Source: Lentimicrobium sp. (GTDB lineage: Bacteria > Bacteroidota > Bacteroidia > Bacteroidales > Lentimicrobiaceae). From it: a stretch of DNA of 64,000 nucleotides. Below the pieces are notes generated by a model. That model had not been told where the DNA came from. It did not search any database and saw only the letters and a program-made list of their open reading frames with translations. The stretch is from the NCBI GenBank assembly GCA_019429275.1, contig JAHYJC010000021.1:1-64000 (forward strand), given 5' to 3'. Shown in pieces: positions 7,113 through 9,947 of this stretch (its first letter is position 1; every line of letters starts with the position of its first letter). The position numbers were made by a program, and so were the translations under genes.

Positions 7113-7526
7113 ATGAAACAGACTTTAAATACATCGTGGAACGGAAATATGCAGTTTGATGCACTGGTGGGAGATCATCATGTTATTATGGATGCAAGTC
7201 CTGAGGTAGGCGGCACCAACGAAGGCCCCAGGCCTAAAGCGCTGATGCTTGCATCGCTTGCCGGATGCACCGGTATGGACGTAATCTCAATTCTAAAAAA
7301 AATGCGTGTTGAACCCAAAACTTTCAACATACGCATTGAAGCCGAAATGACCGAAGAGCATCCAAAACATTATAGCAGTATGCATTTGATTTATGAGTTT
7401 ACCGGCGATAATCTTGATGAAGATAAACTCACAAAAGCAATTGAACTATCGCAAGACAGGTATTGTGGTGTTTCAGCAGTGTACAAAAAAACAATGCCGG
7501 TAACATACGAAGTCAGAATATTGTAA
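7113..7526 (+). CDS. OsmC-family protein
   Basis: A 137-residue member of the OsmC/Ohr superfamily, whose characterised members reduce organic hydroperoxides with a pair of cysteines. The two conserved positions are both cysteine here: the first in LAGCTGMD near residue 52, the second in DRYCGVSAVY near residue 117. It heads a cluster with thioredoxins and thioredoxin reductase, and such a system could re-reduce it. The family also contains members of unknown function (YhfA-like), and this protein may belong there, so a peroxidase role is inference. Confidence 0.88.
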   Translation: MKQTLNTSWNGNMQFDALVGDHHVIMDASPEVGGTNEGPRPKALMLASLAGCTGMDVISILKKMRVEPKTFNIRIEAEMTEEHPKHYSSMHLIYEFTGDNLDEDKLTKAIELSQDRYCGVSAVYKKTMPVTYEVRIL

Positions 7527-7619: not shown

Positions 7620-7976
7620 ATGCTTTACACAAATCTTCACCATGTAATGACAGCAGCTGATCATCAGAAGCTTATCAATCAACACGAAAACGTAATGATC
7701 TGCTGTGGTCGTATGGGCCCCATGTGCATTCCGGTTTATGGTATTATGGAAGATCTTGAGGATGAATTTAAACACGTAAAATTTGCCGATATGGAGTTCG
7801 ATAATCCTGAGGCCTATGTTATACGTGATGCTCCTGAAACCAGAGGTTTTATGGGAATTCCTTTTACCATTTATTACAAAAACGGTAAACTTGTAAAAGC
7901 TACTTCAAGCATTCAGAGCATGACTCAAGTAAGGACCATTCTCGAAAAGGAATTTGCTCCTGTTACTGGCAGCTAA
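7620..7976 (+). CDS. Thioredoxin-fold protein lacking the CxxC motif
   Basis: A 118-residue cytoplasmic protein with the thioredoxin outline: a beta-strand before the active site, then an active-site segment, DMEFDNPE in the middle, and the cis-proline segment GFMGIPFTIYYKNGK typical of thioredoxins. The active site reads G33-P-M-C36 where a thioredoxin has C-x-x-C, so the first cysteine is missing; a vicinal pair Cys28-Cys29 sits just before it. It lies between osmC and trxB. It could work through a different cysteine pair, as a monothiol protein, or as a binding partner. The fold call is from pattern only. Confidence 0.75.
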   Translation: MLYTNLHHVMTAADHQKLINQHENVMICCGRMGPMCIPVYGIMEDLEDEFKHVKFADMEFDNPEAYVIRDAPETRGFMGIPFTIYYKNGKLVKATSSIQSMTQVRTILEKEFAPVTGS

Positions 7977-8078: not shown

Positions 8079-9041
8079 ATGACTGAAAACACACATTTTG
8101 ATGCCATTATCATAGGCGGGGGGCCTGCCGGGATGACTGCCGGCATTTACCTTTCGAGGGCCAGGCTGCGCACACTCATCATTAGCGACGGGGTGCTCGG
8201 AGGGCAAATGGTGTTGACCCATGAGATTGCAAATTATCCGGGCGTGGAAAGCATTTCAGGATATCAGCTTTCAAACATCATGAAGAAGCAGGCCAAAAAC
8301 TTCGGCTGTACGATTAAAAGCAATGCTCAGATTTCAGACCTGAAACTTCAGGGTGAAATCAAAACAGTTACCCTGGCCGGGGGTACTACCTACACCGCCA
8401 ATGCTATAGTACTTACTCCCGGTGGCCGCTCAAGAACACTCAATGTGCCCGGCGAGGAAACGCTCAAAGGGCAGGGAATCTCTTATTGTGCTACTTGTGA
8501 TGGCGATTTCTTTACAGGTAAGGAGATTGTAGTGGTTGGTGGTGGCAACTCAGCACTTGAAGAGGCAGTTTCGCTGACCAAATATGCTTCAAAAGTTACC
8601 ATTGTTCATCAGTTCGATCATTTTCAGGCATTCGAATACGCAATTGAGGAGGCCAGGGCGAATCCCAGAATTAATTTCTTAATGGAATCGGCAATTACCA
8701 GATTTCATGGAAATGAAAAACTGGAAAGCGTGGACATAAAAAACATGAAAACCGGTGAACAGCAAAACTTTCGGACTGATGGAGCGTTTATTTTTATTGG
8801 GTATGTGCCCAATACCGGGTTTATAAAAGGTAAAGTTGAAATGAACCAGAATAACGAAATTATTGTTAACAGCGATATGGCTACAAGCATTCCGGGAGTT
8901 TATGCTGCCGGCGACTCCATTGTAAAGCGGTTCAGGCAGGTTACAACTGCTGTTGGAGATGCCACTGTGGCTGCCCTGGCAAGTTCAGACTACCTTCATC
9001 AAATGAAAACCAAAGAATTACACAAATCACTAACTTACTAA
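8079..9041 (+). CDS. trxB: Thioredoxin reductase-like FAD flavoprotein
   Basis: A 320-residue low-molecular-weight thioredoxin reductase: the FAD-binding GGGPAG at 13-18, GGQM at 41-44, the redox-active CATC at 137-140, a second dinucleotide fold GGGNSA at 154-159, and the C-terminal VYAAGDS. The segment that holds the 2'-phosphate of NADPH in classical enzymes (HRRxxFRA) reads HQFDHFQA at 177-184, without the arginines. This suggests a donor other than NADPH. It is followed after one base by a membrane-anchored thioredoxin, the most likely substrate. Confidence 0.92.
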   Translation: MTENTHFDAIIIGGGPAGMTAGIYLSRARLRTLIISDGVLGGQMVLTHEIANYPGVESISGYQLSNIMKKQAKNFGCTIKSNAQISDLKLQGEIKTVTLAGGTTYTANAIVLTPGGRSRTLNVPGEETLKGQGISYCATCDGDFFTGKEIVVVGGGNSALEEAVSLTKYASKVTIVHQFDHFQAFEYAIEEARANPRINFLMESAITRFHGNEKLESVDIKNMKTGEQQNFRTDGAFIFIGYVPNTGFIKGKVEMNQNNEIIVNSDMATSIPGVYAAGDSIVKRFRQVTTAVGDATVAALASSDYLHQMKTKELHKSLTY

Positions 9042-9042
9042 T

Positions 9043-9462
9043 ATGTCAATCGGTCTCATAATCGCCATCGTTATACTTTCACTGTTTGCAGTTTACATGA
9101 TCTTCTCATTCAGAAGAATGAAAAACATGGGAGCTGCGCCAGAAAGCGAAAAAATTTTAACCCTAACCGATAAAAACTTCCAGAATCAGATCAAAAAGGG
9201 AATAGTTATGGTTGACTTCTGGGCCGAATGGTGCATGCCCTGCAAAGTTATGGGACCAGTATTGAATGAACTGGCCGAAGACGAAAGTTTTAAAGCAGTA
9301 GTAGCCAAACTAAATGTTGACCATTATCAGCCGGTTTCGCAAAAATTTGGCATCAGAGGAATCCCTACCATTATACTCTTTAAAGACGGCAAAGAGGTTG
9401 ACAGAATTGTGGGTATAAAACCCAAAGACTTTCTGATAAAACAAGTGAATAAACACCTCTAA
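9043..9462 (+). CDS. Membrane-anchored thioredoxin
   Basis: A 139-residue protein with one N-terminal membrane segment (residues about 3-22) followed by FRRMKN and then a complete thioredoxin domain. The active site is WCMPC (Cys64, Cys67) within VDFWAEWCMPCKVMGP, and the cis-proline is in GIRGIPTIILF. By the positive-inside rule the positive charges after the helix place the thioredoxin domain on the cytoplasmic face, where the adjacent reductase could serve it. It starts one base after trxB and is probably translationally coupled. Confidence 0.9.
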   Translation: MSIGLIIAIVILSLFAVYMIFSFRRMKNMGAAPESEKILTLTDKNFQNQIKKGIVMVDFWAEWCMPCKVMGPVLNELAEDESFKAVVAKLNVDHYQPVSQKFGIRGIPTIILFKDGKEVDRIVGIKPKDFLIKQVNKHL

Positions 9463-9473
9463 AACCCAAACCT

Positions 9474-9947
9474 ATGAAAATCAAATATTTATTTTTTGTT
9501 GTACTACTTAATGCAGGAACAATGGTAAATGCTCAGAATTTAAGTCAGGAAAGTCATTCAGTAATGATTGAAAACCAAAGCAAGGCTGGTTTCACAGAAA
9601 CTGTTGATCTGCTTTCTGAAACCATTCTGGCCAAAGGCTGGAAAGTGACCATGGTGCACGACCTCCAGGAAACCATGAAGAAAAACGGCAAGGAAGTTCT
9701 TCCGGTAAAAGTTATCGAACTTTGCAATCCCGGGCATGCTTTCAACATCTTGTCGAAAGACGAATACCGTGATGTTAGCCCGATGCTGCCCTGCCGGGTT
9801 TCGGTTTACCAGAAAGCCGATGGGTTAACCTATATTTCACGCATGAATGCTCCTGCTTTTGCAGGAATGATTGGGGGAGAAGCAGCCAAAACTATGGTTC
9901 AGGCTTTTAAGGAGATGGAAGAGATTCTGAAAGTTGCAATCAAATGA
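9474..9947 (+). CDS. DUF302 protein with signal peptide
   Basis: A 157-residue protein with a clear signal peptide (cleavage after about residue 20, MVNA-Q) and a DUF302 domain. The family's landmarks are visible: KGWKV near residue 54, ELCNPGHAF, and MLPCRVSVYQKADG. Two cysteines are retained, in the ELCNP and LPCR motifs. No biochemical function is established for the family to my knowledge. It starts 11 bases after the membrane thioredoxin and ends just before a terminator, so it is the last gene of the redox cluster. Its predicted export separates it from the cytoplasmic thioredoxin domain. Confidence 0.85.
   Translation: MKIKYLFFVVLLNAGTMVNAQNLSQESHSVMIENQSKAGFTETVDLLSETILAKGWKVTMVHDLQETMKKNGKEVLPVKVIELCNPGHAFNILSKDEYRDVSPMLPCRVSVYQKADGLTYISRMNAPAFAGMIGGEAAKTMVQAFKEMEEILKVAIK

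Follow-up and report, generated by a model that had tools for sequence, protein, structure and literature searches.

Within the window, that is, the 64,000 nucleotides analysed here (positions 1 to 64,000 of contig JAHYJC010000021.1 from Lentimicrobium sp.), the open reading frame (ORF) at 7620–7976, termed X in the following, encodes a protein that is predicted to adopt a thioredoxin fold and lacks the CxxC active-site motif. We favour, with a probability of roughly 40%, the reading that X is a thioredoxin-fold thiol protein of the cxxC type, which would join a second thioredoxin system, composed of an atypical TrxB-like reductase and, often, a membrane-anchored thioredoxin, as an additional, non-canonical member. 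The near-unchanged core of the family, together with its mostly TrxB-adjacent position, points to an undescribed thiol-handling partner and not to a chance variant. Among the titles and abstract openings retrieved from the literature under limited search terms, no description of the X family was found.

Conservation of the Cysteines in the X Family

Family counts are based on 164 distinct X sequences from 182 of 184 loci (L027–L106, L147–L248, L001 and L016); the two loci without X (L193, L194) had been taken for their HQFD pattern, which is described below. The short-flank loci L017–L025, among them L025 with Ala29, stand outside the 164. Counts by alignment column and by neighbouring gene comprise 163 rows, as no X ORF was called in L209, one of the 164. 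ORF calling was mechanical, with each frame taken from its first start codon, and the first set of relatives consisted of the best 80 of 186, in which close relatives are over-represented.

The ratio of nonsynonymous to synonymous substitution rates (dN/dS) of X was 0.027–0.066 in comparisons of the first 113 codons with those of ten close relatives. Given this ratio and the near-fixed Gly33, Cys36 and Cys29 columns, X is a genuine gene under constraint, beyond what chance would produce. It was found in 84 of 294 genomes within the order and in 21 of 392 genomes of a phylum sample (one a fragment); its distribution in Bacteroidota spans numerous families and at least two classes, yet is patchy. 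No relative was found in plasmid and viral collections.

The initial annotation, made from the sequence of the window alone, had read GPMC in the place of CxxC, and this was borne out by the family: position 33 is Gly in 160 of the 163 rows, Asp in two, Asn in one and Cys in none, so that CxxC is absent throughout, and Cys36 is present in 161. Among the distinct sequences, C36 is kept in 162/164 and C29 in 158/164. Other columns were found to hold M32 in 163, R31 and P81 in 162 each, M35 and R69 in 160 each and P34 in 159 of the 163 rows; M26 is likewise near-invariant. A vicinal Cys28–Cys29 pair, with an unusual disulfide as one of its possible roles, had also been proposed, along with an alignment to check the conservation of all three cysteines. 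The pair is present in the window, and C29 (158/163) and C36 are indeed conserved; C28 is not, as residue 28 is Cys in 96 rows, Ile in 58, Val in seven and Ser in two. A vicinal C28–C29 disulfide was therefore rejected as a family feature, which disfavours the unusual disulfide in that form. Judging from the alignment, the pair in the window is incidental; what stays constant is C29 together with C36, plus the loop rich in Met.

Two genomes, G110 and G597, contain two copies of X each, and one of the G597 copies is altered (GRMDPMC). At L126 (genome G326), around 1136–1596, a decayed X-trxB remnant was encountered, comprising X residues 1–31, a frame shift and TrxB from residue 201.

Predicted Fold and Register of the Cysteines

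The AlphaFold2 model of X, for which 63 window and genome-contig sequences served as input, had a predicted local distance difference test score (pLDDT) of 90.2 and a predicted template modelling score (pTM) of 0.85. The predicted elements (strand 7–9, helix 12–21, strand 24–29, helix 37–47, strand 53–58, helix 63–69, strands 82–87 and 90–96, helix 101–112) make up the complete thioredoxin order. In a VIA structure search, where matches differing by less than 1 Z count as tied, the top match was 3gnj_A (Z 15.5, root-mean-square deviation 2.1, 108 residues), followed by 2wz9, the thioredoxin domain of human TXNL2 (Z 15.1). Foldseek placed X among the thioredoxins, with template modelling scores of up to 0.76 by query length. 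According to its model, X has the thioredoxin fold; the fold, strand order and cis-Pro segment (G79-I80-P81) that had been read from the sequence are thus supported by the AlphaFold model and the VIA match. Neither a family in which all three cysteines vary nor a structure unlike thioredoxin was found, either of which would have contradicted the annotation.

Sequence profiles matched X weakly. A Pfam scan of the window protein returned no match up to E 1, and 40 of 63 relatives scanned matched Pfam Thioredoxin weakly (best E 0.0037). A sequence search of the Protein Data Bank had a thioredoxin as top match (E 0.0016, or 1.1e-4 with the family profile). For the window protein and the 63 members, the peroxiredoxin-type models AhpC-TSA and Redoxin yielded no match up to E 1, in scans whose filters remove most matches above E 0.1, and no metal-binding family was matched.

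The register between X and thioredoxin was taken from predicted secondary structure, counted from the end of the strand preceding the active site and not from coordinates. In the model of the operon thioredoxin, this strand ends at W60, the second active-site cysteine (C67) lies at +7, and helix 2 extends from +5 to +19. In the model of X, C29 closes the strand, C36 follows at +7, and helix 2 starts at +8, directly past C36, and ends at +18. Because both cysteines lie at +7 and helix 2 ends at +18/+19, C36 would be the counterpart of the second active-site (resolving) Cys35 and C29 that of Trp28, in the numbering of E. coli thioredoxin. Since the helix of X begins only past C36, and that of thioredoxin right after its first cysteine, C36 may at the same time occupy the helix-start place held by the nucleophile in thioredoxin.

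With thioredoxin (TrxA; TIGR01068/PF00085), X shares the fold, the strand order, the cis-Pro and, in this register, a cysteine at the second active-site position. It differs in lacking CxxC, in having Cys where thioredoxin has Trp28 and Met32 where it has Trp31, in the first turn of helix 2 being unformed in the model, and in its match to the NCBIfam model TIGR01068 (E 0.005, 17 bits), which is below the curated cut-off of 96.8. The thioredoxin domain of human TXNL2/GLRX3 resembles X in fold and presumably lacks the first CxxC cysteine as well. That domain is fused to monothiol glutaredoxin domains, whereas X is a stand-alone protein of 118 residues without fusion, with a separate Trx-Grx gene in some X operons. 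To our knowledge, TXNL2/GLRX3 has no TrxB partnership. An excerpt of PMC2447459 contained only a reference to PICOT.

In the peroxiredoxins, listed as cxxC proteins in an excerpt of an atlas of the thioredoxin fold (PMC2757866), only the C-terminal cysteine position is kept, as in X. In place of the Thr/Ser that this excerpt gives as the peroxiredoxin criterion, however, X has Gly33 three residues before C36, and it matched no peroxiredoxin-type model. Classified by motif, X is thus neither a thioredoxin (no CxxC) nor a peroxiredoxin (no Thr/Ser), and is of the cxxC type.

The TrxB-like Reductase Adjacent to X

A TrxB gene is the next same-strand downstream gene in 152 of 181 loci, or in 135 of the 164 distinct loci, and the gap to X is at most 60 bases (overlaps included) in 97 of these 135. 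The other 29 distinct loci comprise four with TrxB elsewhere in the locus (L037 and L199 past a small opposite ORF, L068 and L236 as a Trx-TrxB fusion), 19 with room but no TrxB, five that are cut short and the one without a called X ORF. Among 20 loci from 19 genomes collected under the label 'same phylum', TrxB was present in 20/20 and X was labelled in 19. The suggestion that X is a partner of TrxB or OsmC hence gains support for TrxB from gene order and co-occurrence in the phylum; OsmC is less constant, lying upstream of X in the same-strand run in 31/163 loci and downstream in seven.

In the full-length TrxB neighbours, CATCD is retained in 132/132, GGGxxAxE in 131/132 and HQF[DN]xFQ in 123/132, and the motif [HV]RRDxxRA for the 2'-phosphate of NADPH was found in 0/132. 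Motifs of the VRRDELRAS type are present in three TrxB paralogues of X loci and in the second TrxB of the Lentimicrobium genome. The window enzyme scored 334 bits, under the curated cut-off of 343.45, and another TrxB of the same genome 402.8 bits, above it. HRRD is described as binding the 2'-phosphate of NADPH in thioredoxin reductases, and GxG and FF are named as thioredoxin-binding features, in an excerpt of PMC5627308. Of these features, X-linked TrxB retains both glycines of GxG in 82/82 (with R or K between them in 67/82 and Gln in the window) and FF in 78/82. The motifs suggest that X-linked TrxB does not prefer NADPH; as GGGxxAxE is intact, NADH would be the simplest guess for its electron donor.

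Two Desulfovibrio reductases are described in the same excerpt (PMC5627308): TR3, which uses NADH and its own odd Trx3, and TRi, which uses no NAD(P)H. The TR3/Trx3 pair is similar to TrxB/X in that a canonical system is accompanied by a reductase devoid of the NADPH motif and by a non-canonical thioredoxin-fold protein, a likeness by description and not by sequences, of which the motif loss is the part shown here; GxG and FF, reported as lost in TR3, are largely kept in X-linked TrxB. In the NAD(P)H-independent DvTRi the HRRD motif is replaced as well, with TQ/NGK and GEGxxAxN in that enzyme as compared with mostly HQFD and GGGxxAxE in X-linked TrxB. With GGGxxAxE kept, a dinucleotide may still bind to the latter.

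Of the 392 phylum genomes surveyed for X, 14 have the exact HQFD DNA pattern, and X is present in 12 of these. The pattern adjoins X in 11 of the 12; in G275 it lies on another contig, the X-adjacent TrxB being cut by the contig end. In G442, where no X was found, TrxB is 137 bases from the contig end and X would fall outside, and the match in G334 lies inside no ORF of at least 60 residues on its strand.

A search for TrxB covered 15 of the 19 loci with room but no adjacent TrxB, corresponding to 14 genomes (L064, L070, L080 and L096 were not included). Seven genomes have a TrxB-like open frame of 424–461 residues with 40–43% identity, two of these seven matches containing stop codons; one has a TrxB of 60% identity on another contig, and five have only ordinary TrxB (32–37% identity). 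In the remaining genome, which is 89% complete, no TrxB was found at E 1e-30. An altered X motif occurs in 1/135 loci beside TrxB versus 5/19 without (Fisher 9.5e-5, but a tree-aware test had six supported pairs only). All five altered motifs without adjacent TrxB fall in genomes having the long TrxB-like frame, and one of them, L214, deviates at P38 alone, outside GRMGPMC. The Trx-TrxB fusion itself was read in L068 and L236 only.

The fusions in these two loci (L068:2357–3625 and L236:8112–9380) encode 422 residues with HQFDAFTA, and X occurs there without a stand-alone TrxB. They adjoin DUF302 and a putative radical-SAM protein.

Gene Neighbourhood

In the window, the genes for OsmC, X, the TrxB-like flavoenzyme, a WCMPC thioredoxin and DUF302 form a single same-strand run (Table 1). 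The thioredoxin is probably tethered to the membrane via residues 3–27, and 70 of 76 operon thioredoxins passed a test for a membrane helix, which was a simple hydrophobicity window.

Table 1. Features of the X gene and of the surrounding run in the window.
Feature	Position	Strand	Basis or conservation
ORF X, thioredoxin-fold protein without CxxC, 118 residues, ATG start	7620–7976	+	ORF call, predicted fold, conserved family
Cys28 codon	7701–7703	+	variable: Cys in 96/163
Cys29 codon, end of strand 24–29, putative counterpart of thioredoxin Trp28	7704–7706	+	Cys in 158/163
Signature block G30-R-M-G-P-M-C36-x-P-V-Y40	7707–7739	+	exact in 157/164 distinct sequences
Cys36 codon, immediately before helix 37–47	7725–7727	+	Cys in 161/163
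Ile80-Pro81, cis-Pro segment	7857–7862	+	P81 in 162/163
OsmC-family protein, upstream, same run	7113–7526	+	PF02566, E 4e-19
Atypical TrxB-like flavoenzyme; CATC kept, HQFDHFQAF (8607–8633) replaces HRRDxxRA	8079–9041	+	profile matches, motif reading
Thioredoxin WCMPC, N-terminal helix 3–27 read as membrane anchor	9043–9462	+	profile matches, model
DUF302 protein, downstream, same run	9474–9947	+	PF03625, E 1.5e-15

Neighbour labels were assigned by BLAST against one query per gene, and the counts stand without a random-locus background; the labels 'SQR-like', 'NapH-like' and 'DUF2892' are our own reading, the remaining names being from Pfam. Over the 163 loci, downstream same-strand genes gave 94 hits for thioredoxin, 16 for Trx-Grx or Grx, 16 for DUF302 plus six of a second type, 13 for Cpn10-like, nine each for SLAC1 and NapH-like ferredoxin, seven for DUF2892 and five for SQR-like flavoprotein. 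A Crp/Fnr-type regulator is the divergent neighbour in 47/163 loci. These neighbours are suggestive of a role in handling sulfur or peroxide.

X is conserved more strongly than each of the four operon mates compared. Over the same locus pairs, the values for X and its mate were 0.695 versus 0.648 for TrxB (132 loci), 0.748 versus 0.501 for TrxA (60), 0.745 versus 0.620 for OsmC (31) and 0.762 versus 0.580 for Crp/Fnr (47).

At L042:6743–7318 and in its relatives, the X operon encodes a 192-residue protein that combines a thioredoxin-like with a glutaredoxin half, and a gene for a short Cpn10-like protein often comes next. Other classes have Grx and Cpn10 as individual ORFs adjoining X-trxB. 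At the X loci L236 and L196, we read neighbouring genes as coding for a multihaem cytochrome, a sulfur transporter of the YeeE/YedE type (so labelled in L236) and a methyltransferase, which suggests sulfur or chalcogen metabolism.

Proposed Function and Alternatives

If X is a dedicated thiol protein, C36, located directly before helix 2 in the model, would be its reactive thiol and C29, at the strand end, the resolving or protecting partner. The conserved face formed by M32–M35, I80–P81 and S97–I98 would bind one protein partner, and the C29/C36 pair would be reduced via the neighbouring TrxB/Trx with electrons that come not from NADPH but probably from NADH. The substrate is the least certain element; reactive sulfur or peroxide species are our guess on account of the neighbours OsmC, DUF302, SQR-like flavoprotein, sulfur transporter, SLAC1, Trx-Grx and Cpn10-like. 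The more specific proposal of a moved redox pair, in which C29 and C36 make up a CX6C couple and receive electrons from a dedicated TrxB using NADH or another non-NADPH donor, is put forward tentatively. The strength of the favoured explanation lies in conservation and gene order, its weakness in that every chemical step is inferred.

Several observations weigh against it. C29 is missing from six of the 164 distinct sequences, where positions 28–29 read C-A (four), C-L (one) and I-L (one); with one of them devoid of Cys28 as well, a C29–C36 disulfide would not be universal. In the divergent copies L189 and L190, Ser replaces C36 and C29 is retained. The exact HQFD DNA pattern is absent from 9/21 X genomes, in eight of which TrxB adjoins X, the ninth being the remnant in G326; moreover, 19 distinct loci have room yet no adjacent TrxB. 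The X motif is also intact in the six searched genomes that yielded no TrxB of the X-linked type, which argues against a function strictly needing that TrxB and leaves a strict dependence of X on the HQFD enzyme unsupported. Finally, a profile-profile alignment of X with the operon thioredoxin, weak at the active site, gave another register (C29-GRMGP with CKVMGP). This register was rejected because of its low confidence and its conflict with the model, which places C29 in a strand.

Next after a dedicated thiol protein ranks a non-catalytic docking or regulatory adaptor, whose Met-rich face would bind TrxB, TrxA or a client, with C36 being structural. This is only somewhat less likely. In its favour, X retains the binding-face residues of thioredoxin despite the loss of the dithiol, conservation reaches far beyond the thiols, and the TXNL2 domain, presumably devoid of the first active-site cysteine, is the second VIA match. 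Yet C36 and C29 vary no more than most of the block, a strictness that a pure adaptor would not require.

A role of X in binding a soft metal or metalloid, with C29, M32, M35 and C36 (CxxMxxMC) as ligands, is unlikely. Both Cys and both Met, and M26 also, are near-invariant, and a few flanks contain Metal_resist (a cluster in 6/90 loci, one member scanned), an HMA domain (one protein) or SLAC1; such genes are few, however, in counts without an enrichment test, and no metal-binding family matched X. A copper or heavy-metal operon was set aside, as the sole P-type ATPase scanned was of the cation type, and is retained as a weak rival only.

A peroxiredoxin-like thiol peroxidase, with C36 at the cxxC position as peroxidatic cysteine reduced by the neighbouring Trx system, is placed behind metal binding as improbable. 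It would agree with the near-invariance of R31 and R69, with OsmC as a recurrent neighbour and with peroxiredoxins being the commonest cxxC proteins, their C-terminal Cys acting as nucleophile (PMC2757866, excerpt); against it stands the absence of peroxiredoxin-type Pfam matches reported above. A degenerate thioredoxin without function, which the lost first active-site cysteine and the decayed copy at L126 might suggest, is highly improbable, being already contradicted by conservation, that is, by the low dN/dS and a near-invariant block over many families and more than one class.

The X operons represent a second thioredoxin system of Bacteroidota that is strongly conserved and uncharacterised, and in which the reductase has lost the NADPH motif and its partner CxxC. 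If the proposal of a moved redox pair is true, X would be a carrier of thioredoxin type that dispenses with CxxC and is specific to a single partner or to sulfur species. Should the relocated pair be functional, the chemistry of thioredoxin can be rebuilt elsewhere on the fold; if it is not, X would clearly exemplify the conversion of a thioredoxin into a dedicated adaptor.
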